Source of the DNA: a virus
Virus record (IMG/VR): IMGVR_UViG_3300025082_000057
Coordinates: 1 to 26,922 of that record
DNA length: 26,922 bases
Strand: one strand, 5' to 3'
In this document: positions 10,193 to 24,823 of the stretch, in pieces
Layout: each line of letters begins with the position of its first letter
Position numbering within the stretch: the first letter of the stretch is position 1
The notes under the pieces: generated by a model
What the model was told of the DNA's origin: nothing
What the model saw: the letters and a program-made list of their open reading frames with translations, nothing else
The model's database searches: none
Program-made: the position numbers and the translations under genes

Positions 10193-11029
10193 ATGTTTAA
10201 AAAATTTATTCTTGTAATTTTCATAGCAGCGGCGTTTCTTATCGCGCCTACCGCACGAGCGGAGGAGAAAACCGACGCGCCTGTCCAGCGGATTGCCCAG
10301 ATGCTTTATCCCAGCGTCATGGTTGATGTTGGTAGAGGTCAAGGGTCAGGCACAATAATCTACTCTGAACGGCGCGATGACGAAGCATGGACAATGGTAT
10401 TAACAAATCATCACGTTGTAAAAAGTGCATTACAAATTCTCACAGAATTTGACCCCAAACAAGGGGAGGAGGTCAAGCGGGAGCACAGGCGTCCCGTAAA
10501 GATTCGATTTTGGTCTTACAATCAGTTTTCCTCTGCCATTGGGACAAGCGGGAGGACCGCGCATATTGTTGCATGGGACAGACACAGAGATTTGGCGCTT
10601 CTTCGAGTAGATGATAAGGAAAAAATCTATGATAATGTAGCTATTTTATGGCCCGAGGATGCCGAGGGACCTTACGTTTTTCAGAAATCATGGGCTGTAG
10701 GGTCTGGGCTAGGAAACCCCCCGTATCCGACTGAAGGATTGCTCAGCAACACCACCGCAAAAGATAAAGAGGGTTATTCCCTGTATCAAGCATCCGCGCC
10801 CATAATTTTTGGGAACAGCGGCGGTTCTTTATATGTTTACAGTGACTTACGAGAAAATTATGAATTAATAGGAGTGCCAAGCATGGTGAGTGCTGTGGGG
10901 TTTGGTTCGATAGTCAGTTTTGTCGCTTGGAGCAGACCAATTACAGAAATTCGCAGTTTTCTTAGGCAATCTAATTTTGGCTGGGTTATTGGGGACGCGC
11001 CGGAGGTGGAGGATGCTAGCGCGAACTGA
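10193..11029 (+). CDS. Secreted trypsin-like (HtrA/DegP-class) serine protease
   Basis: This is a 278-residue protein. Residues 1-23 are a Sec signal peptide: Lys-Lys, a hydrophobic core to about residue 19, then ARA before EE, so cleavage is expected after Ala23. The mature part is a chymotrypsin-fold protease. It has TNHHVV with catalytic His74, HRDLALLRV with Asp133, and FGNSGGS with nucleophile Ser209 in the GNSGG context. No PDZ domain follows, because the protein ends about 70 residues after the serine. The product should act in the periplasm or outside the cell. The gene sits seven bases after the membrane protein gene and before the endolysin-holin pair, so it may help lysis, process an envelope protein or block superinfection. 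Base composition looks more AT-rich than its neighbours, which suggests a later acquisition. The triad is seen directly; substrate and role are unknown. Confidence 0.85.
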   Translation: MFKKFILVIFIAAAFLIAPTARAEEKTDAPVQRIAQMLYPSVMVDVGRGQGSGTIIYSERRDDEAWTMVLTNHHVVKSALQILTEFDPKQGEEVKREHRRPVKIRFWSYNQFSSAIGTSGRTAHIVAWDRHRDLALLRVDDKEKIYDNVAILWPEDAEGPYVFQKSWAVGSGLGNPPYPTEGLLSNTTAKDKEGYSLYQASAPIIFGNSGGSLYVYSDLRENYELIGVPSMVSAVGFGSIVSFVAWSRPITEIRSFLRQSNFGWVIGDAPEVEDASAN

Positions 11030-11529: not shown

Positions 11530-12009
11530 ATGTCCTTTGGCATTCAAGTTGGCGATCTCCGCGAAATCATTATTCGTCCGGCTCTTATGCACATCGAGGC
11601 GTGGTCGGAAGCGGCGGAAGAAATAGTTCTCGGAACGGCACTCACCGAGAATTATAGCAATGGCTCTCTTAGCCTGGATCAAGACGGTGGTGGTCCGGCT
11701 CTTGGCCTCTGGCAAATGGAGCGGGCCACTATGAAAGATATCGAGCAAAACTATCTCCGGTTCCGGCCCGATATTAAAGGTCGTGTCGATATGATGTATG
11801 CGGTCTGGCCAATCCCGGAAATTCAATTGTCGGGCAATCTCTATCTCGGTGCGGCAATGTGCCGATTGCATTATCTCCGACAGCCTGGCGTTTTACCCGA
11901 GGCCGGTGACTATGCCGGCCAAGGCGCCTATTACAAAAAATTTTACAACACGCTCTTGGGCGCCGGTACAACCGAGCGCTATATTGAGGCGATGGAAAGG
12001 AACTTCTGA
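11530..12009 (+). CDS. Endolysin: small lysozyme/SLT-fold transglycosylase-like protein
   Basis: This is a 159-residue protein without signal peptide or anchor. The segment LGTALTENYS followed by GPALGLWQMERAT matches the 'ES...S..GA.GLMQ' layout of soluble lytic transglycosylases. Glu40 stands at the catalytic position and GLWQM is at 59-63. Further on, LYLGAAMCRLHYLR fits the helix that follows in the fold, and an aromatic segment near 130-140 could line the sugar cleft. It is shorter than bacterial SLT proteins and amounts to a bare catalytic domain. The product would cleave peptidoglycan glycan strands once released through the holin. It begins 2 bases after the preceding stop, and its TGA shares a base with the holin ATG (TGATG). 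That endolysin-holin coupling supports the call. An alternative is a non-lytic virion-associated protein of the same fold. Confidence 0.65.
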   Translation: MSFGIQVGDLREIIIRPALMHIEAWSEAAEEIVLGTALTENYSNGSLSLDQDGGGPALGLWQMERATMKDIEQNYLRFRPDIKGRVDMMYAVWPIPEIQLSGNLYLGAAMCRLHYLRQPGVLPEAGDYAGQGAYYKKFYNTLLGAGTTERYIEAMERNF

Positions 12010-12527
12010 TGGTTTTGCCCCTGCTTCTCGGTCTTGGGATTTCACTCGCCAAGGAATTTGTGCCTGACATCATTGGCTCCATCGCCGGCAAAGAAGGCGA
12101 GGCAATTGCCGAGCGCGTAGTCGGCCTGGCGGAAGGCATCACGGGCGAGAAAGAACCGGCTTCAGTTATGAAGGCGTTGCGCGAAAATCCTGATATGGTG
12201 CTGAAACTTCAAATGGAACTCGCCGAGGAACGCCGTGAAGCCTTGAAATACGAATATCTTGATCGAGCAAGCGCGCGGCGCATGTCGATGAAAAGCGATC
12301 TTCACGCATGGGCGCAGATCATCGTCTCGATCCTTGTCACCGCCGGCTTTGGTATGATGCTCTGGGCGGTTGTCACCAAGCCGATCCCAGAAGCGTCTAG
12401 CGATATCGCGCTGATCATGCTCGGCACGTTGGCGACCGGCTTTGCCCAGGTGCTTAATTTCTGGCTTGGTTCCTCGCGAGGAAGTCAGGAGAAAGGTGAT
12501 CAGTTGGCTGCGGCAGCAAGAAAATGA
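12009..12527 (+). CDS. Holin, 3TM gene-transfer-agent type
   Basis: This is a 172-residue protein. It has a hydrophobic N-terminus (VLPLLLGLGISLA), a charged middle with NPDMVLKLQMELAEERREALKYEY and RASARRMSMKSD, then two clear membrane spans (about 101-124 and 131-155). It ends in FWLGSSRGSQEKGD. This is the layout of the 'holin of 3TMs, for gene-transfer release' family found in alphaproteobacterial gene transfer agents and related phages, including the NP-rich helix and the 'fWfGSS.gS..K' tail. It should form lesions in the inner membrane that release the endolysin encoded just upstream. The start overlaps the endolysin stop by one base. It is the last confident gene of the rightward block. 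Confidence 0.8.
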   Translation: MVLPLLLGLGISLAKEFVPDIIGSIAGKEGEAIAERVVGLAEGITGEKEPASVMKALRENPDMVLKLQMELAEERREALKYEYLDRASARRMSMKSDLHAWAQIIVSILVTAGFGMMLWAVVTKPIPEASSDIALIMLGTLATGFAQVLNFWLGSSRGSQEKGDQLAAAARK

Positions 12528-12661
12528 GCTACCGGTTCACCAAATATGTTCACTCATATATTTCGATTGCGGTTGAAACGCAACGGCGTGTGACGTTGTC
12601 GAAGTGCGGGACAGTGAAGGTGATCAAATCAAGTTGTCGATTTTGTTGCCGATATTGTTGA
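12524..12661 (+). CDS. Possible short ORF at the convergent junction
   Basis: An ATG inside the holin stop (ATGA overlap) opens a 45-codon frame, beginning MSYRFTKYVHSY and ending in a cysteine-rich stretch (SSCRFCCRYC). The coupling is like other junctions in this block. Its last 38 bases, however, overlap the 3' end of the oppositely oriented DnaA-like gene, and the Cys-rich tail looks like antisense reading of that gene. It may be a real gene truncated by the junction, or chance. Confidence 0.3.
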   Translation: MSYRFTKYVHSYISIAVETQRRVTLSKCGTVKVIKSSCRFCCRYC

Positions 12662-13037
12662 GCGAAAAGATCGTTGATGTATCGACCTCATCGACGCGTT
12701 TTTGTATCGCGAGGCAAGCATGATGAACCGACGTTGGGTCGCGGTCGATCATATGCCCTATCTGTGCCAGTGATCTGGTAGTTCTTGTCCTCGCCAAATA
12801 GCAAAATATATGTCGCGGTTCCGTGTGCGCTTTCGTCTTTCTCTTGGATCGCATTGCATTCGGAAAGATTTCAAAATAATTGCAAGTCGCATGGAAAATT
12901 TTGCCAAGGGTTTGATCGGTAGTTTTCCAGCCCGAAAGATTGGCCGACGCTCGATGGGGATCGTTGCCAACAATGATCTCTGGAAGATCGCGACGGAAAG
13001 CCAAGATCATTTGTCGGTGATGATTTGAGATGATCAA
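12624..13037 (-). CDS. Stand-alone DnaA domain IV-like DNA-binding protein
   Basis: This is a 137-residue protein. Residues about 45-115 follow the DnaA C-terminal helix-turn-helix closely: IFHATCNYFEI, RSKRKTKAHTEPRHIFCYLAR, SLAQIGHMI, then DRDPTSVHHACLAIQKR. Compare bacterial DnaA 'va.yf.i....l.s.kR.r.iv.pRqiamYLar', 'sl.eIG..fggRDHsTVlHA..ki'. There is no AAA+ ATPase domain. It would therefore bind DnaA boxes or related sites without ATP-driven assembly, perhaps marking a phage origin, competing with host DnaA or repressing transcription. The residue equal to the base-contacting His of the RDHTTV motif is Pro here, so box preference may differ. The start chosen is TTG at 13037, which overlaps the upstream TGA and has AAAGGA nine bases before it. 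An ATG at 13010 has no such site. Confidence 0.75.
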   Translation of the reverse strand: MIISNHHRQMILAFRRDLPEIIVGNDPHRASANLSGWKTTDQTLGKIFHATCNYFEIFPNAMRSKRKTKAHTEPRHIFCYLARTRTTRSLAQIGHMIDRDPTSVHHACLAIQKRVDEVDTSTIFSLNNIGNKIDNLI

Positions 13038-13462
13038 CTTATCAATCCTTTGTTTTTTAGATCAAGATGATATAGGAGAACAACGCACATTGCGGATGCC
13101 GCACTGAATGTCGGCATGATGGTCGAGCAGAGTGGTCCTCTGCCTTTCCGGCCTTCCATGCCGGCGGTGTATTTCTTAGACGACTGAGCAACGAATGTGA
13201 TCTTTTTGGTGATCTCCTCTGGCACCAGCCGTATAGCGTCTTTGAGATTGATCAAGGGGTTTGGCAAGACCATGAAAATATTTTCGTTGGGGTCAAGCCA
13301 ATATGCCATTTGCGTGCTTGATGTTCGTTTTGGCACCCAGCCGAATGCGTAATGGATGGCGGCGTTGATCTGGTAATCCGGTGCTTTCAGCTTGTAGATT
13401 TCACTGATCAGGGTTGGCAGATCGGCGGCTAGTTCTTGAGCTGATGGATAATCATTATTCAT
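13034..13462 (-). CDS. Phage ABA-sandwich-domain-like protein, unknown function
   Basis: This is a 142-residue protein. The pattern 'aaih.afgW.....w.dp.......lP.pl..l.dAi.LvPe......' ending in a PTFSAASAMCVVLLYHLDLK helix is that of the small phage protein family called the ABA sandwich domain. That family is widespread and uncharacterised. The start at 13462 is preferred over an in-frame ATG at 13555. It has GAAGG eight bases upstream, and the resulting 8-base overlap with the small membrane protein gene matches the packing of this block. The stop overlaps the TTG start of the DnaA-like gene. Confidence 0.65.
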   Translation of the reverse strand: MNNDYPSAQELAADLPTLISEIYKLKAPDYQINAAIHYAFGWVPKRTSSTQMAYWLDPNENIFMVLPNPLINLKDAIRLVPEEITKKITFVAQSSKKYTAGMEGRKGRGPLCSTIMPTFSAASAMCVVLLYHLDLKNKGLIS

Positions 13463-13634
13463 TGGAACGCCTTCTATCCATCCCACTTCGTTCGTCGACG
13501 CCTGACCTGCGTTTGCTCTCGTATTCCCATTTGCGGAACACGCGATGTTTGACATAGATCACTGCGCCGAAGATGCAGACGCCGATGCCTATTCCCAGGA
13601 AAACAAGAAAGCCGAAATTGATGGCAAAGCTCAT
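13455..13634 (-). CDS. Small single-span membrane protein (59 residues)
   Basis: This frame starts at 13634, preceded by AAGGGGAATTTTA, a good ribosome binding site. It encodes a membrane span at about residues 7-27 (FGFLVFLGIGIGVCIFGAVIY) and then a basic, polar tail with KHRVFRKW and several Arg/Lys/Asp. The N-terminus is probably outside and the charged tail cytoplasmic. It overlaps the next gene by 8 bases. No family is recognised. Its placement among accessory genes fits a host-membrane modifier. Confidence 0.6.
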   Translation of the reverse strand: MSFAINFGFLVFLGIGIGVCIFGAVIYVKHRVFRKWEYESKRRSGVDERSGMDRRRSNE

Positions 13635-14436: not shown

Positions 14437-14626
14437 AATTGTTTCTCCTTTCGGGAGGGTTATCGGCCCCACGCAGACGAACGCCTTTAGGTGTATGGTG
14501 TTCAACAGGGTAACGATTCAAGATGGTTTTGACTCCGACGGTAATCTCATAATCCCCGTCAAAAGTTGTAATCACTTGATCCTCAAACCGATACCTGTAT
14601 TCTACCGGTACTGTGATCAGCACCAT
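14423..14626 (-). CDS. Small beta-rich hypothetical protein downstream of SSB
   Basis: This is a 67-residue protein. The ATG shares one base with the SSB stop (TGATG), so translation is coupled. The first half reads as alternating strands (VLITVPVEYRYRFEDQVITT, then DYEITVGVKTILN). The tail is basic and proline-containing. It may assist SSB or be an independent small accessory protein. No family recognised. Confidence 0.6.
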   Translation of the reverse strand: MVLITVPVEYRYRFEDQVITTFDGDYEITVGVKTILNRYPVEHHTPKGVRLRGADNPPERRNNYGKY

Positions 14627-15051
14627 CAGAACGGGACATCTTCGTCGATGCCGGCGCCGCCATCGGAAGGAGCGGGATCATCGTCGGTCGTTCGTTGGCT
14701 GTCCAAAGATTCGGAGCCCTTCGAATCGAGCATTTTCATGACACCGTTATATCCTGAGCAGATTACTTCCGTCGAATATTTATCGGTGCCGTCTTGCGCC
14801 GTCCACTTGCGGGTTTGCAGCTTGCCCTCGATATAGACGAGCGATCCCTTGTGGAGATATTGATTGGCGATCTCGGCCAGCTTGCCGAACATGACGATGC
14901 GGTGCCATTCCGTCTTTTCCTTCGTCTGACCATCCTTCTTCCATTTCTCGGAAGTGGCCATCGACAGGTTAGCGACGGAATCGCCGCTTTGAAGTTGGCG
15001 CAATTCGACATCTCTGCCGAGGCGCCCGATGAGTTGGACTTTATTTAGCAT
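14626..15051 (-). CDS. ssb: Single-stranded DNA-binding protein
   Basis: This is a 141-residue protein with a complete bacterial-type OB fold. It begins [18 protein letters not shown], followed by [35 protein letters not shown] and [14 protein letters not shown] Ser/Asp/Gly-rich linker then leads to the acidic tip DEDVPF that recruits SSB partner proteins. It coats single-stranded DNA in replication and recombination and would cooperate with the Rad52-like protein encoded 270 bases upstream. Length is near the usual for phage SSBs. The start at 15051 overlaps the small upstream gene by 11 bases. Confidence 0.95.
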
Positions 15052-15289
15052 TGGCTTTCTCTATTTCATTGACATTGGCGGTTGGCATGGGTTGCCATTC
15101 AAATCGTTGCCAGTCAAAAGCTCGGAATCTCACCGTGTCGGCGGAAGCAATATCGATATCGATGCTATGAACATCGTTCATCTTAAGCAGAGTATCCTGC
15201 AAGGCTTCCGTCTGCGTTTTGGCAAACACGCCAAAGCTTTTCACGACAACGTCGTGAACTTCTACATCGTAGTATTTAAACACACTCAT
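15041..15289 (-). CDS. Small protein, paralogue of the gene at 16000-16335
   Basis: This is an 82-residue protein. The N-terminus [23 protein letters not shown] and the next 25 residues ([19 protein letters not shown]) align with the gene at 16000-16335 (MSNFKYYDVKIKEVVV..., GALQEVFEEMSKVRDLDF). The two are paralogues sharing a strand-strand-helix core of about 45 residues. The C-terminal part ([16 protein letters not shown]) is unrelated. The start region lies in a 55-base duplicated segment that includes the ribosome binding site. It stands between the Rad52-like and SSB genes, so a recombination-linked role is possible. Confidence 0.6.
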
Positions 15290-15341
15290 TCTTCCCTCTT
15301 TCAGAAAGGTTTGAAGTTATGCGGTGTCACGTCCTTTCAGC
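15287..15341 (-). repeat. 55-base direct repeat, copy 1 (Rad52 3' end and leader of small gene)
   Basis: This segment matches 16333-16387 at 51 of 55 positions, including a 28-base exact core. It covers the start codon and ribosome binding site of the small gene at 15041-15289 and the last codons of the Rad52-like gene (LKGRDTA and stop). Confidence 0.9.
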
Positions 15342-16000
15342 CTTTCTATCATTGATGCGGTTCGCTCCTGTATGACATCCGTGAGATGTTGGGCCATATC
15401 AGGCTCACGGCTCCTTACGAATCTGAAAGTCTCTTTGATCTCGGCCTTCCATGCTTTGAACGAGGTGTCGTCCCAATCCGTGTCATTGCAGATTCGAATG
15501 TTTTCGTCGGTCCATGTTTGATCTATACCGCGTTGCTCCGCGGCTTGCTTTGCTTCGGCCTCCGCTATATCGGCCGATGTTCCGACATCGCGCTGGTCTT
15601 TGTCGTAAAGCGCCAGGCCAAACGGATTGCCGAACGTCATAAACGCCCGCTTCATCGCATCGGTTTCGGCTTCCTTTGATGCCGATTCGTGGTTGTTGCC
15701 GGCGTTCTTCATCACGCCGTGGCCCGTGCCGGTTCCTTCCCGAATGAGGGAGTAGCCGCCTTCACCGTGAATGGTAATGCGAACGCGAGCGAGATAGGTG
15801 CATTTGACACCATCTTGATTCACGCATTCCATACTGATCGTCTCGCGTGACCATTTGCCAAATCCGAATATGCGATTGGCTTCGGCGATGGCGTGCCAGC
15901 CTTCGATGTACGAGACTTGCCCGTCGCCCTGTTTGCGCTGTCGGACCTTCGACTTGTCGAGCTTGTCCGACAGGCTGGCCTTTTGTTCCTCACTGAACAT
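15317..16000 (-). CDS. Rad52-family single-strand annealing protein
   Basis: This is a 227-residue protein. Residues about 15-140 have the Rad52/Rad22 signature in order: LDKSKVRQRKQGDGQVSYIEGW, ANRIFGFGKWSRE, ARVRITIHGEGGYS, REGTGTGHG (88-96), HESASKEAETDAMKRAFMTFG and FGLALYDKDQR. The C-terminal 85 residues are charged, helical and probably carry partner contacts. The protein should bind single-stranded DNA as a ring and anneal complementary strands. In phages it pairs with an exonuclease and SSB, and here a PD-(D/E)XK nuclease and SSB are in the same block. The ATG overlaps the upstream stop by one base (TGATG). The last codons belong to a duplicated segment. Confidence 0.9.
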   Translation of the reverse strand: MFSEEQKASLSDKLDKSKVRQRKQGDGQVSYIEGWHAIAEANRIFGFGKWSRETISMECVNQDGVKCTYLARVRITIHGEGGYSLIREGTGTGHGVMKNAGNNHESASKEAETDAMKRAFMTFGNPFGLALYDKDQRDVGTSADIAEAEAKQAAEQRGIDQTWTDENIRICNDTDWDDTSFKAWKAEIKETFRFVRSREPDMAQHLTDVIQERTASMIERLKGRDTA

Positions 16001-16335
16001 CAGGCTTTCTCGCCGACGCCATCATTGGCAATGCCATCGAGGGTCGCTTCATGCGCTTCCTCGCGCGCATCGCTTTCGGCGTCTTTGGCCGCTTCTTCTC
16101 GACGGCGAGCTGCCGCGGTTTGTTTGTTCTTCTCGAACTCGGCGGTCTTTTTCTCGTTCACGATTACGTCATAGAGGATCATCGTCCCGTTGCGGGTTGT
16201 GAAGTCGAGATCACGCACCTTCGACATTTCTTCGAAGACTTCCTGCAGTGCGCCGAACGGGCTGGTTGCAAAAATTTCGTTCTTGTTGACGACGACTTCT
16301 TTGATTTTCACATCGTAATATTTGAAATTCGACAT
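16000..16335 (-). CDS. Small protein, paralogue of the gene at 15041-15289, with charged tail
   Basis: This is a 111-residue protein with the MSNFKYYDVKIKEVVV core shared with the gene at 15041-15289. The second half is a highly charged helix (EFEKNKQTAAARRREEAAKD and on), likely a coiled coil, which the paralogue lacks. GAAGGAGGAAAGA precedes the ATG. The stop overlaps the Rad52-like start. The conserved pairing with a Rad52-type gene on both sides suggests a partner or regulator of annealing, but this is inference. Confidence 0.65.
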   Translation of the reverse strand: MSNFKYYDVKIKEVVVNKNEIFATSPFGALQEVFEEMSKVRDLDFTTRNGTMILYDVIVNEKKTAEFEKNKQTAAARRREEAAKDAESDAREEAHEATLDGIANDGVGEKA

Positions 16336-16387
16336 TCTTTCCTCCTTCGGAAAGGTTTGAAGTTATGCGGTGTCACGCCCTTTCAGC
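16333..16387 (-). repeat. 55-base direct repeat, copy 2 (orphan Rad52 tail and leader of small gene)
   Basis: This is the partner of 15287-15341. The bases at 16363-16386 still read LKGRDTA and stop in the leftward direction, identical at protein level to the end of the Rad52-like gene, but no gene body precedes them. It therefore looks like the scar of a tandem duplication. Confidence 0.85.
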
Positions 16388-18137: not shown

Positions 18138-18410
18138 TCAGCGGTCGACCGAGATAATATATCCGGCGGCTTTGACAGCCGATTCGATTTCGTCGAGCGG
18201 CCCGTCGATCAAGGCATCGACCTTATCGCTGTGAATGTTGATAGCCCCCATCTCCCCGCAATTAGGACATTGCATTTCGTCGCCCTTTTCGGGCATGGCT
18301 TTTTGATCCTTCTCGTTCAAACTGATTTGGATCGTGATCTCCTGAAATATGTTCTGTTCCGGCAAGCGTTCCGTTCCATTGATCCAGACAGGGATTTTTT
18401 GGATGCTCAT
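18138..18410 (-). CDS. Small protein with a CPNCGE knuckle
   Basis: This is a 90-residue protein. The first 40 residues form a strand-rich part (IPVWINGTERLPEQNIFQEI). A MQCPNCGE knuckle at about 46-53 follows, then an acidic helix (ALIDGPLDEIESAVKAAGY). Only one CxxC is present, so metal binding would need a second pair, perhaps in a dimer. The DNA encoding the knuckle is identical over 22 bases to the start of the gene at 22368-22643. The stop of the nuclease gene encoded downstream lies elsewhere; this start overlaps the end of the nuclease frame by four bases. Confidence 0.6.
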   Translation of the reverse strand: MSIQKIPVWINGTERLPEQNIFQEITIQISLNEKDQKAMPEKGDEMQCPNCGEMGAINIHSDKVDALIDGPLDEIESAVKAAGYIISVDR

Positions 18411-19489
18411 TGCTTTTCCTTATTTTGTGTCGATTTAGTCGGGATTGACATCGCGTTTTTGCTGGGATCGGCCGGAAGCGTTTCTTCGATGACTTTATCC
18501 GGCATCGCTGCTTTTTTCGCCGCCACTTCAATGTCGATCAGTTGATTGCAGTAGTAAGCGACATCGCAATAGTCGTTGCAGCGGCGATTCTCGCCGAGCC
18601 TGACATCGACCGAATAGGGAGGCGGCAGGATCATATTTGCCGGTGCAATACTTTCAGGGTCATCGCCAGGGATCAGCCAGCCTTTATCGAGGGCGTGTTT
18701 TTTCAACTCCTCGAGATTTTCGGCGACCTTGATGGCCGATTTGCGGCCTTCTTTCATCAGCGCGAACTTGGTCGACGACGCCCACCGTTCATCGTCGCTG
18801 CACGGCGCCAGCTTTTGGATGTGCTTGTTCTCGACGCACAGCCGAGCAGCTTGATGCAGCGTGACGCGCTCCTGAACGAATTTCTGTTGATCAGGAAATC
18901 CCCATCGTGTGACCGGGATTATCCCGACCTGATTTTTGGGATATGTTTCGTCGCCGCTCTTGGCGCGCCGACCGGCTTCCGGCTTCGACCAGTCGCGGAA
19001 GATGGCGACGATTTCCAGCCGATCAATCGGCGGATAGGTCTTGGCCTCGTCATGGCTCATCGTGAACAGCCAATCTAGCATATTCAACTGCTGTGTTTTT
19101 TCCTCGCGCAGGCCGAAGATCACTTCCCAGATGGACATCTGCTTGTAATCTTGCAGCACCCATTTTTCGTCCTCGTCTTGCGCTAGGCAGATCGAATCGA
19201 AGGTGCCGCCGATGAGCCAACCGTCGACCTCCGCATAGAGCCGTTTTTCAGTGATGCCGGTGATATTGGCGCGCTCCAAGACGACATGCATGGCCTTGCC
19301 CATAAGGGCATAGATGCGGTCGGAGATGTCCTCGACCAGCTCTTCCTTGAAATACCGGCGCAAAGCGACCTGTTGCGGTGGCGAAATCAACTGTGTTACC
19401 GTGATATCGGATTCGCCGGCGTCGTAGGGATCGTTTTTCACCGCCTCGCAGACGGCCTCGGGTAGATGAAGATTATTCGTGAATTTCAC
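18407..19489 (-). CDS. PD-(D/E)XK nuclease with probable Fe-S cysteines (Cas4/AddB-like exonuclease)
   Basis: This is a 360-residue protein. GKAMHVVLE (His68) is the conserved helix of the family. GGTFDSI gives Asp98, VLQDYK gives Asp114 and Lys116, and the following QQLNML gives the QxxxY-like helix. These are the catalytic elements of the PD-(D/E)XK phosphodiesterase fold. Cys230 and the C-terminal cluster Cys304, Cys308, Cys314 could hold a 4Fe-4S cluster, as in Cas4 and AddB nucleases. It probably resects double-strand ends to make single-stranded DNA for the Rad52-like protein. The last 40 residues are a polar Pro/Ser/Lys tail. The start is GTG at 19489, overlapping the preceding stop (GTGA). 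Confidence 0.8.
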   Translation of the reverse strand: MKFTNNLHLPEAVCEAVKNDPYDAGESDITVTQLISPPQQVALRRYFKEELVEDISDRIYALMGKAMHVVLERANITGITEKRLYAEVDGWLIGGTFDSICLAQDEDEKWVLQDYKQMSIWEVIFGLREEKTQQLNMLDWLFTMSHDEAKTYPPIDRLEIVAIFRDWSKPEAGRRAKSGDETYPKNQVGIIPVTRWGFPDQQKFVQERVTLHQAARLCVENKHIQKLAPCSDDERWASSTKFALMKEGRKSAIKVAENLEELKKHALDKGWLIPGDDPESIAPANMILPPPYSVDVRLGENRRCNDYCDVAYYCNQLIDIEVAAKKAAMPDKVIEETLPADPSKNAMSIPTKSTQNKEKQ

Positions 19490-19863
19490 TGGTTTTGCTC
19501 CTTCAAGCGTTTCAGGTAAGCCTTTTGGTTCTTCATGATCTCAATTCGATGTCGGATCACGCGGCGATCAATCATTTCCTCCATAATTTGTTCATGAAAA
19601 TGCGCTGGTTTTGGCGGTGTCGGGTATACATAGGTCCGCATCACGCCGTTTGCGGCCTCCCAGATGAGATCCGATGGGATCGAGGAGAGGGCTTCAAGGT
19701 ATCCTTGAGCGGCCAGCGGCGACAGCGGCTTGAGGGAAAGGGTTTCCCAGACCTGATCTATCGCCTGGGCGAGAACGTCGTCTGGTGACGGTTCCAGGGC
19801 GATTTCGGCGCATATGAGCATATGATCGAGATCATCGGGGTCAAAATCGGCCTTATACGGCAT
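19486..19863 (-). CDS. Helicase-loader-like replication protein (lambda P-like)
   Basis: This is a 125-residue protein from ATG 19863. The same frame is open further upstream, with an ATG at 19944 that would overlap the preceding gene by 62 bases. Neither start has a strong ribosome binding site. The segment AQGYLEALSSIPSDLIWEAANGVMRTYVY followed by PTPPKPAHFHEQI matches the 'Y..aL..lP...l..A....lr.....P.PaelR' pattern of phage proteins that resemble the N-terminal helicase-binding part of P/DnaC-type loaders. The C-terminus is a basic helix. The AAA+ part of a DnaC-type loader is absent. It sits directly after a DnaT/O-like gene, as P follows O. Probably recruits host DnaB. Confidence 0.45.
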   Translation of the reverse strand: MPYKADFDPDDLDHMLICAEIALEPSPDDVLAQAIDQVWETLSLKPLSPLAAQGYLEALSSIPSDLIWEAANGVMRTYVYPTPPKPAHFHEQIMEEMIDRRVIRHRIEIMKNQKAYLKRLKEQNQ

Positions 19864-19882
19864 AATCCAGCCGGTGCCGGAT

Positions 19883-20188
19883 TCACTTGGGGCGTCGGCG
19901 AGCAAGGACGGCCTCAGTGAGATTAGAGCGTCGTTCTTGAGCATTGCTTGTGCCCGAAGCTCCGGTCCCACCAGATCGAGGAGTTTGGAACTCGACTGCC
20001 TTGAGAAGCCAATTTCGCCATGCTTGATCCCATCGGACGAATTTCTTGGCGTTGGCTCGGTAGTAGGCGCAAAATTTGTCCGTCTCATTATCGAGGTCAA
20101 GTCCCCCAACTTTTTCATTGGCCCAAGTCCTCATTTCGTCGGTGATGCCAAAATCGTCTGGTATTTCGTGAGCGCATTTTTTGGTCAT
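19883..20188 (-). CDS. DnaT/O-like replication protein, C-terminal module only
   Basis: This is a 101-residue protein. GITDEMRTWANEK, then ETDKFCAYYRANAKKFVRWDQAWRNWLLKAV match the common C-terminal element of phage replication initiators and DnaT-like proteins ('e.ekFr.yw.a......dWd.tWrnWi'). That element binds single-stranded DNA or the loader. The N-terminal winged helix usual in such proteins is missing here. It may be supplied separately by the winged-helix protein at 20604-20909. The ATG overlaps the RusA stop (ATGA). The tail is basic (VLARRRPK). Confidence 0.65.
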   Translation of the reverse strand: MTKKCAHEIPDDFGITDEMRTWANEKVGGLDLDNETDKFCAYYRANAKKFVRWDQAWRNWLLKAVEFQTPRSGGTGASGTSNAQERRSNLTEAVLARRRPK

Positions 20189-20622
20189 ATTTCCAGCTCC
20201 TTGATAGCAACGTACATCTGCGGTGCCCTGGAATATTTTTTGTAGGCCATAATCCGTTGCACTTGAGAATCGTCGTCGTAAACCACGCCATTCAGAGCAT
20301 CGAGGACGATTTTGACGTAATTATCGAGATCGGGCTTGCCCGGTGATATCCGGTTTTTCAGTGCCCAATCGCGCTTCTCAGCAGACCAAGATTTTGGAAC
20401 AGCTACATGCGCTTCGACATAGACTTGGAGACGTCCTGTCCACTTACCGCCACCGAGTTTATTCATGCATGAGAGTGCGGTCATGCCCAAAGCGTTCTCA
20501 TATGATTTTGTTGCTTTGGGTGTATGAAAATGAGGCTTTCCATCTTTGCCGATGGAACCGCGAGGCCGGCCTTTGGCTATTGGAGCGCCATCGAGCGAGA
20601 TGATTAAAGTCGTGCGCGCCAT
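20185..20622 (-). CDS. rusA: RusA-like Holliday junction resolvase
   Basis: This is a 145-residue protein with the RusA core. GAPIAKGRPR is near the N-terminus. KPDLDNYVKIVLDALNGVV then gives the catalytic Asp98, Asp100 and Asp108, and YDDDSQV is the acidic loop that closes the family signature. A conserved K follows at the RIMAYKKY helix. The enzyme cuts four-way junctions symmetrically as a homodimer with Mg2+. It would resolve recombination intermediates before packaging. Length is near the 120 residues of E. coli RusA plus a short N-terminal extension. GGGAGGAA precedes the ATG, inside the end of the upstream gene (19-base overlap). Confidence 0.93.
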   Translation of the reverse strand: MARTTLIISLDGAPIAKGRPRGSIGKDGKPHFHTPKATKSYENALGMTALSCMNKLGGGKWTGRLQVYVEAHVAVPKSWSAEKRDWALKNRISPGKPDLDNYVKIVLDALNGVVYDDDSQVQRIMAYKKYSRAPQMYVAIKELEI

Positions 20623-24449: not shown

Positions 24450-24710
24450 CTATTTCTTGCCGGCGAGCGCCCGCAAGATCAGGTCGCCGTGGCACATCTG
24501 CGGCGAACACCAGCAGACCAAGCTCTTGCCGACTAGCGGTGCCAGGTCGAGCCGTGGCAGAACGTGCTTCGCAAATTTGCGCAATACATCCTTGCGCGAG
24601 CCATGCTCGCCAATGACGTAAGGGTTTCCCCATTTCGAGCCACGCCCGATATAAATCGCGTCATCAGGGATATGGTGAAATTGGCTTCTCAAGTTAAATA
24701 CTCGTGGCAT
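24450..24710 (-). CDS. DUF4326 protein
   Basis: This is an 86-residue protein. DDAIYIGRGSKWGNPYVIGE, SRKDVLRKFAKHVLP and the C-terminal LVGKSLVCWCSPQMCHGDLI carry the full DUF4326 signature ('yiGRgs.wGNPy.ig..gsr...i..y...l........l.GK.L.CwC.P..CHgdvL'). The conserved Cys and His residues at the end suggest metal or nucleotide chemistry, but no activity is established to my knowledge. It is common in phages. The ATG at 24710 (with GGAAAG upstream) shares a base with the stop of the preceding ORF. A truncated second copy of its C-terminus lies at 25116-25154. Confidence 0.85.
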   Translation of the reverse strand: MPRVFNLRSQFHHIPDDAIYIGRGSKWGNPYVIGEHGSRKDVLRKFAKHVLPRLDLAPLVGKSLVCWCSPQMCHGDLILRALAGKK

Positions 24711-24823
24711 CAAAACTTTCCTTTCAGTCGGTTGAGAAACCTCGGGATCGCCCCGATCAAGGTCGGGAGCGAGACGATCCAGAGCATGAACGCTATCGCG
24801 AGGCAGACCCCTAGTGCTACCAT
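24710..24823 (-). CDS. Very small membrane protein (37 residues)
   Basis: This frame begins MVALGVCLAIAFMLWIVSLP and ends with basic residues (RFLNRLKGKF). One span is predicted over residues 2-27. The start overlaps the previous gene by 7 bases and the TGA shares a base with the DUF4326 ATG (TGATG), so it is embedded in a coupled set. Confidence 0.6.
   Translation of the reverse strand: MVALGVCLAIAFMLWIVSLPTLIGAIPRFLNRLKGKF

Follow-up and report, generated by a model that had tools for sequence, protein, structure and literature searches.

A stand-alone DnaA domain IV protein encoded within a recombination and replication gene block of viral DNA

ORF 12624-13037 (minus strand) of the window, the 26,922-nucleotide stretch of viral DNA analysed here (IMG/VR record IMGVR_UViG_3300025082_000057), encodes a 137 amino acid protein with a TTG start that contains DnaA domain IV and nothing else, and is a stand-alone DnaA domain IV protein (solo). 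DnaA is the protein that starts bacterial chromosome copying. With a probability of roughly 40%, the solo is a DNA-binding accessory that lacks an ATPase and interferes at sites under DnaA control elsewhere than in the phage genome; this reading is favoured over that of an origin marker. This kind of protein is already known and its function is unexplained; the ORF adds another member, and the novelty implied by the first-pass annotation of the sequence was overstated, as solo DnaA C-terminal proteins are common and annotated in phages (PMC6811365).

Domain content, predicted fold and gene setting

Bac_DnaA_C (PF08299) was the sole Pfam domain in the product (residues 46-110; 62.6 bits against a curated cut-off of 31.5; E 3.6e-17), and a six-frame profile search of the whole record gave a single match (E 6.7e-19; Table 1). 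No AAA+ (ATPase) match was found in the product by Pfam search. The full-length DnaA model TIGR00362 aligned over its last 93 positions only, the domain IV region, with 59 bits against a cut-off of 343.9, and by both score and AAA+ content the solo is not a member of this initiator family. Translation and profile searches thus bear out the first-pass annotation in its coordinates, strand, DnaA helix-turn-helix (HTH) motifs and lack of an ATPase domain. The PRK06030 solo models (NCBIfam NF004686-NF004688) scored below threshold (17.8-21.7 bits against cut-offs of 136-181). There was no match to phage replication initiation families, and the sole PHROG matched was phrog_16091, the HTVC010P-type solo DnaA, for which the match was weak (E 2.8e-4, 22 bits) and which the tree does not group with the window protein.

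An AlphaFold model of the solo, built with 45 aligned phage proteins, has a pLDDT of about 97 across residues 41-137 and low confidence across residues 1-38, with helices at residues 34-55, 59-62, 69-85, 90-96, 101-116 and 120-136. Superposition on 3pvp_B (M. tuberculosis DnaA with box DNA) matched 95 residues at 1.1 Å with a Z score of 17.5, and superposition on 1j1v_A (E. coli domain IV) gave Z 17.1, against Z 6.3 for the best unrelated fold, so that the six-helix domain IV fold is recovered. The two outcomes named beforehand as speaking against a domain IV protein, a missing profile match and a different fold, were not seen.

The solo's TTGA, starting at 13037, overlaps the TGA stop of the upstream gene, and this overlap suggests translational coupling of the two genes; codon usage is best in the solo's frame. 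As the first-pass annotation had described, the leftward block ends with the solo; a convergent gene faces it. The accompanying proposal that it is made at the end of the transcript is plausible: its position at the block end agrees with this, but no promoter or terminator signals around the solo stand out over shuffles.

Several further observations concern the same DNA. ORFs 19486-20118 and 19883-20188 (both minus strand) overlap by 236 bases in different frames, and the former probably starts further downstream because the initiator-like match sits in the latter. Two 102-base copies (15240-15341 and 16286-16387, 79% identical) flank the Rad52-type gene and span the starts of two paralogous small genes, one protein beginning MSNFKYYDVKI. 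The rightward block carries a trypsin-like serine protease with a signal-peptide-like start (10193-11029, plus strand; Trypsin_2 E 2.1e-11), and the early block a DUF4326 protein (24450-24713, minus strand; E 4.7e-21).

Table 1 Features of the window referred to in the text
Feature	Coordinates	Strand	Basis
Convergent gene, last of rightward block	12009..12527	+	PHROG match, phrog_1544
Stand-alone DnaA domain IV protein, 137 aa	12624..13037	-	Pfam E 3.6e-17; AlphaFold and PDB match; translation
Recognition helix, residues 101-116, begins PTSVHHA	12690..12737	-	Helix in model; alignment
Bac_DnaA_C profile positions 3-68	12708..12902	-	Six-frame search
Codon CCA, Pro101 (His434 equivalent)	12735..12737	-	Alignment; sole Pro among 58 phage solos
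Basic loop RSKRKTKAHTE, residues 63-73, minor-groove element; Lys67 is the Arg399 equivalent	12819..12851	-	Alignment; loop role PMC5043019
Upstream gene, overlaps TTG start	13034..13555	-	No Pfam or PHROG match
Probable Shine-Dalgarno site (AAAGGA), 8 bases upstream of TTG	13046..13051	-	Sequence
Single-strand binding protein, leftward block	14626..15051	-	Pfam SSB E 3.4e-37
Rad52-type single-strand annealing protein, leftward block	15317..16000	-	Pfam Rad52_Rad22 E 1.6e-36
Exonuclease, leftward block	18407..19489	-	phrog_2139 E 2e-32; relatives in Pelagibacter phage Baldr and others
Initiator-like element, C-terminal part of phage replication initiation/primosomal proteins	19883..20188	-	phrog_1408 E 3.5e-9, positions 191-276 of 302
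RusA Holliday junction resolvase, leftward block	20185..20622	-	Pfam RusA E 2.4e-29

Base-reading residues of the solo proteins

Base-specific contacts in E. coli DnaA are made from positions 399 (basic loop), 423 (helix 4), and 432-435 and 438-439 (helix 5) (PMC5043019, PMC7561715). Alignment to E. coli DnaA gives the window protein Lys399, Ala423, Arg432, Asp433, Pro434, Thr435, His438 and His439, corresponding to the substitutions Arg399 to Lys, Pro423 to Ala, His434 to Pro and Leu438 to His, with Arg407, Asp433, Thr435, His439 and the basic loop kept. The alignment sets Pro101 at His434, as the first-pass annotation had read the residue after the Arg-Asp pair, and a single-base sequencing error is ruled out since its CCA codon is two base changes from a His codon. 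The canonical DnaA-box reader signature, Asp-His at 433-434 plus Arg399, is therefore incomplete, with Asp kept and both His and Arg399 replaced; this signature bears on DnaA-box recognition and is not required by the Pfam definition of Bac_DnaA_C. The recognition helix of the AlphaFold model opens with Pro101. Proline is well tolerated at the first position of a helix, and the fold can thus persist despite the lost histidine contact. The replaced reading residues suggest altered specificity; a canonical box is TTATCCACA.

Position 434 is His in 55 of 58 non-redundant phage solos and Tyr, Arg and Pro in one each, the last being the window protein; the search patterns omitted this position, and the similarity-based confirmation may still favour His. 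Arg399 is kept in 52/58 and Asp433 in 51/58, and ten of the solos, the window protein among them, differ at 399, 433 or 434. As the base-reading residues are kept, most phage solos should read canonical boxes.

Recurrence and genomic context of solo proteins in phages

In IMG/VR, 57 loci came out of a profile-guided scan, mostly short ORFs without an ATPase, and a second pattern scan gave 15, some of them new. Dozens of viral proteins in BFVD are named 'Chromosomal replication initiator, DnaA C-terminal', alongside Cellulophaga phage DnaA proteins. Named phages with a solo include Octadecabacter virus DB2, Olleya phage Harreka_1, phages of Rhizobium, Bradyrhizobium and Aurantimonas, and the pelagiphages HTVC010P and Skadi; DnaA is reported in all HTVC010P-related genomes (PMC6811365). 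Single-sequence searches of viral contigs, genome contigs and plasmids found no close relatives of the window protein and distant ones in phages, and a second genome-contig scan with a cysteine-type alignment found no close relatives. The window protein lies on a long branch (2.37 changes per column) in a domain-only tree that is too short to place it. Two matches from an RDPT[ST]V pattern scan of viral contigs were rejected as false (28-aa frames). MT835859 (H1 / L002) was rejected as a phage relative; in MT835859.1, filed as 'Bacteriophage sp.', a full-length dnaA stands together with a dnaN-like gene, and the record resembles a fragment of bacterial chromosome. Literature searches found no experimentally tested phage solo DnaA.

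DNA polymerase A was found in 0/41 solo-bearing records and DnaB in 2/43, both counted without a matched background and the latter including L062 and L063, which were taken in for their exonuclease. There was no DnaB match in the five named solo phages or in the window, where the record is a linear fragment and the absence is thus not conclusive. Since both genes are nearly always absent, solo-bearing phages probably use the host replisome; Skadi is described as relying on host RNA and DNA polymerases and as encoding neither a helicase nor a primase (PMC10504331).

Across 54 solo loci (703 kb), 28 TTWTNCACA sites were observed against 40.7 expected under a dinucleotide model, for loci rather than all whole genomes, and no pair of sites lay closer together than 300 bases. 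A seeming surplus of boxes around solos was rejected, as a scrambled motif gave the same result. The window holds two exact-consensus boxes against 1.55 expected and 65 two-mismatch boxes against 58 +/- 8 expected, which is no excess, and its GC skew indicates no clear origin. In alphaproteobacterial phages, DnaA sites show no positional asymmetry (PMC9437464).

GcrA matches were found in nine non-redundant solo records, two of them weak, and in 7/9 the gene shares the solo's strand and is no more than 1.2 kb away (uniform-placement p 1.7e-8, a value that overstates the case because genes of one functional block cluster anyway); the association was read from solo to GcrA, the reverse approach having lacked hits. 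In L007, L013, L014, L027, L031, L047 and L052 the GcrA gene adjoins the solo or lies up to 1.2 kb from it, in some cases with DNA methylases near. N6/N4 methylases occur in 15/48 solo records, and Caulobacter gcrA is DnaA-dependent (PMC8203912). The proximity of GcrA suggests cell-cycle interference in some carriers, and GcrA and the solo, with or without methylases, are possibly a phage set of alphaproteobacterial cell-cycle regulators. The window has neither GcrA nor N6/N4 methylase genes, and this context is therefore borrowed from relatives.

Candidate roles and comparison with known systems

In the favoured reading, the solo would be made from a phage recombination/replication operon and would bind particular double-stranded DNA sites; in E. 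coli, DnaA domain IV alone suffices for sequence-specific binding (PMC5835720). Having neither the ATPase nor the helicase-recruiting domains, it would form no DnaA filament, melt no DNA and load no helicase. It would most likely occupy the host origin and DnaA-controlled promoters and displace or counteract host DnaA, and would thereby turn the host replisome, which the phage needs, to the service of the phage. DNA binding, the place of binding and the effect on host initiation are what we infer here. Targets more likely lie outside the phage because most solos should read boxes, yet solo loci hold few. The near absence of polymerase A and DnaB genes, the separate initiator-like genes, the Mu-type carriers, and the GcrA and methylase genes of some carriers also favour an accessory of this kind over an origin marker. 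A prophage precedent is YfdR, which binds DnaA and whose gene cluster, when overexpressed, inhibits initiation (PMC4776307). The preference for an accessory over an origin role would hold for the family and is weaker for the window protein: its replaced residues probably shift or loosen the target sequence, the case for competition at host boxes is weaker because His434 is lost and Arg399 changed, and the absence of canonical boxes may be compatible with non-canonical sites in the phage genome.

The main rival is a phage-specific transcription regulator, whose domain would have drifted to its own operator and would switch early or late phage promoters, for example shutting off its own early block. 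This is possible although on the unlikely side. The replaced reading residues of the window protein would fit it, as would the ten solos differing at Arg399, Asp433 or His434, the location of solos within early blocks, some beside other regulators, and the double role of DnaA itself as activator and repressor (PMC8203912). Mu-like phages, in which the solo lies downstream of transposase and MuB-like genes and an origin role makes little sense, point the same way. However, most solos have canonical reading residues, contrary to drift towards an own operator, and motif enumeration and a repeat search found no repeated or convincing candidate operator in the window, a weak test as it covers one genome.

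A more speculative proposal, which is rather unlikely, is that host-replisome phages repeatedly captured the bare DnaA tip, often beside GcrA and adenine methylases, as a dominant-negative or re-targeting cell-cycle tool, and that the recognition helix of the window member evolved to read a new box.

It is unlikely that the solo is an origin-binding initiator subunit like lambda O, binding the phage origin and recruiting host DnaB helicase with another phage protein. The recurrence of solos in phages without polymerase and helicase genes and their conservation in HTVC010P-type phages (PMC6811365) are in its favour, as is the position of the solo within the replication/recombination block of the window, Skadi and HTVC010P; the solo is missing from Baldr, which has the exonuclease relative and whose annotation includes a helicase and a primase of its own. 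Against it, no box clusters lie near solos or in the window, and the match to phage replication initiation families falls at 19883-20188 and not in the solo. DUF1376 genes occur in 11/48 solo records, Skadi has an O-like initiator gene separate from its solo, and eight solo loci carry Mu-type transposase genes, so that carriers often have another origin binder or no need of one; Mu-like solo phages should need no origin because they transpose. In these eight loci (L011, L015, L017, L019, L027, L032, L039 and L053) the solo is downstream of the transposase, with MuB-like genes in most. The first-pass suggestion that the protein marks a phage origin is weakened by the same absence of box excess and clusters, the separate initiator-like genes and the Mu-type carriers; its two other suggestions, titration or displacement of host DnaA and action as a repressor, are both compatible with the sequence.

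It is very improbable that the solo is a decayed copy of a captured dnaA without any function today, as the long branch, the lost His434 and the lack of a close relative in the collections searched might suggest: the ORF is intact and its start overlaps the upstream gene, the predicted fold is coherent, Arg407, Asp433, Thr435, His439 and the basic loop are conserved, and the slot is shared with abundant marine phages.

HTVC010P-type pelagiphages, which are abundant and widespread in the sea, have solos as conserved genes. Should solos act at host DnaA sites, as in the favoured accessory reading, they would represent a common and simple means of phage takeover of host replication. How the DnaA recognition helix can change specificity is a question for which the His-to-Pro member offers a natural test.

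The six-helix fold, basic loop and HTH are common to the solo and to DnaA domain IV of E. coli (1J1V) and M. tuberculosis (3PVP), at 28% identity and 1.1-1.2 Å; those proteins are four-domain ATPase initiators, whereas the window protein has Lys, Ala, Pro and His at 399, 423, 434 and 438. PRK06030 proteins are likewise small and match the DnaA C-terminal HTH, but the window protein scores far under their cut-offs. Octadecabacter Antarctic DB virus 2 gp52 and the DnaA of Olleya phage Harreka_1 are, like the window protein, stand-alone domain IV proteins in a recombination-gene block, and all three share a helix-3 cysteine variant (IFCYL in the window, VYCFL and IYCVV); the two relatives keep His434 and Arg399 and have about 30% identity to the window protein. 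HTVC010P gp46 and Skadi-1 gp28 (phrog_16091) are domain IV proteins without an ATPase from the one PHROG weakly matched by the window protein. Their longer N-terminal part (170-177 aa) and retained Asp-His-Thr set them apart, and a clade with the window protein is not supported. Each is the last gene of its block and faces a convergent block running towards lysis and structural genes, which is the slot of the window's solo, where the genes at the facing end of the rightward block carry no functional assignment; the annotation of the Skadi-1 block lists a nuclease and an annealing protein, as in the window.
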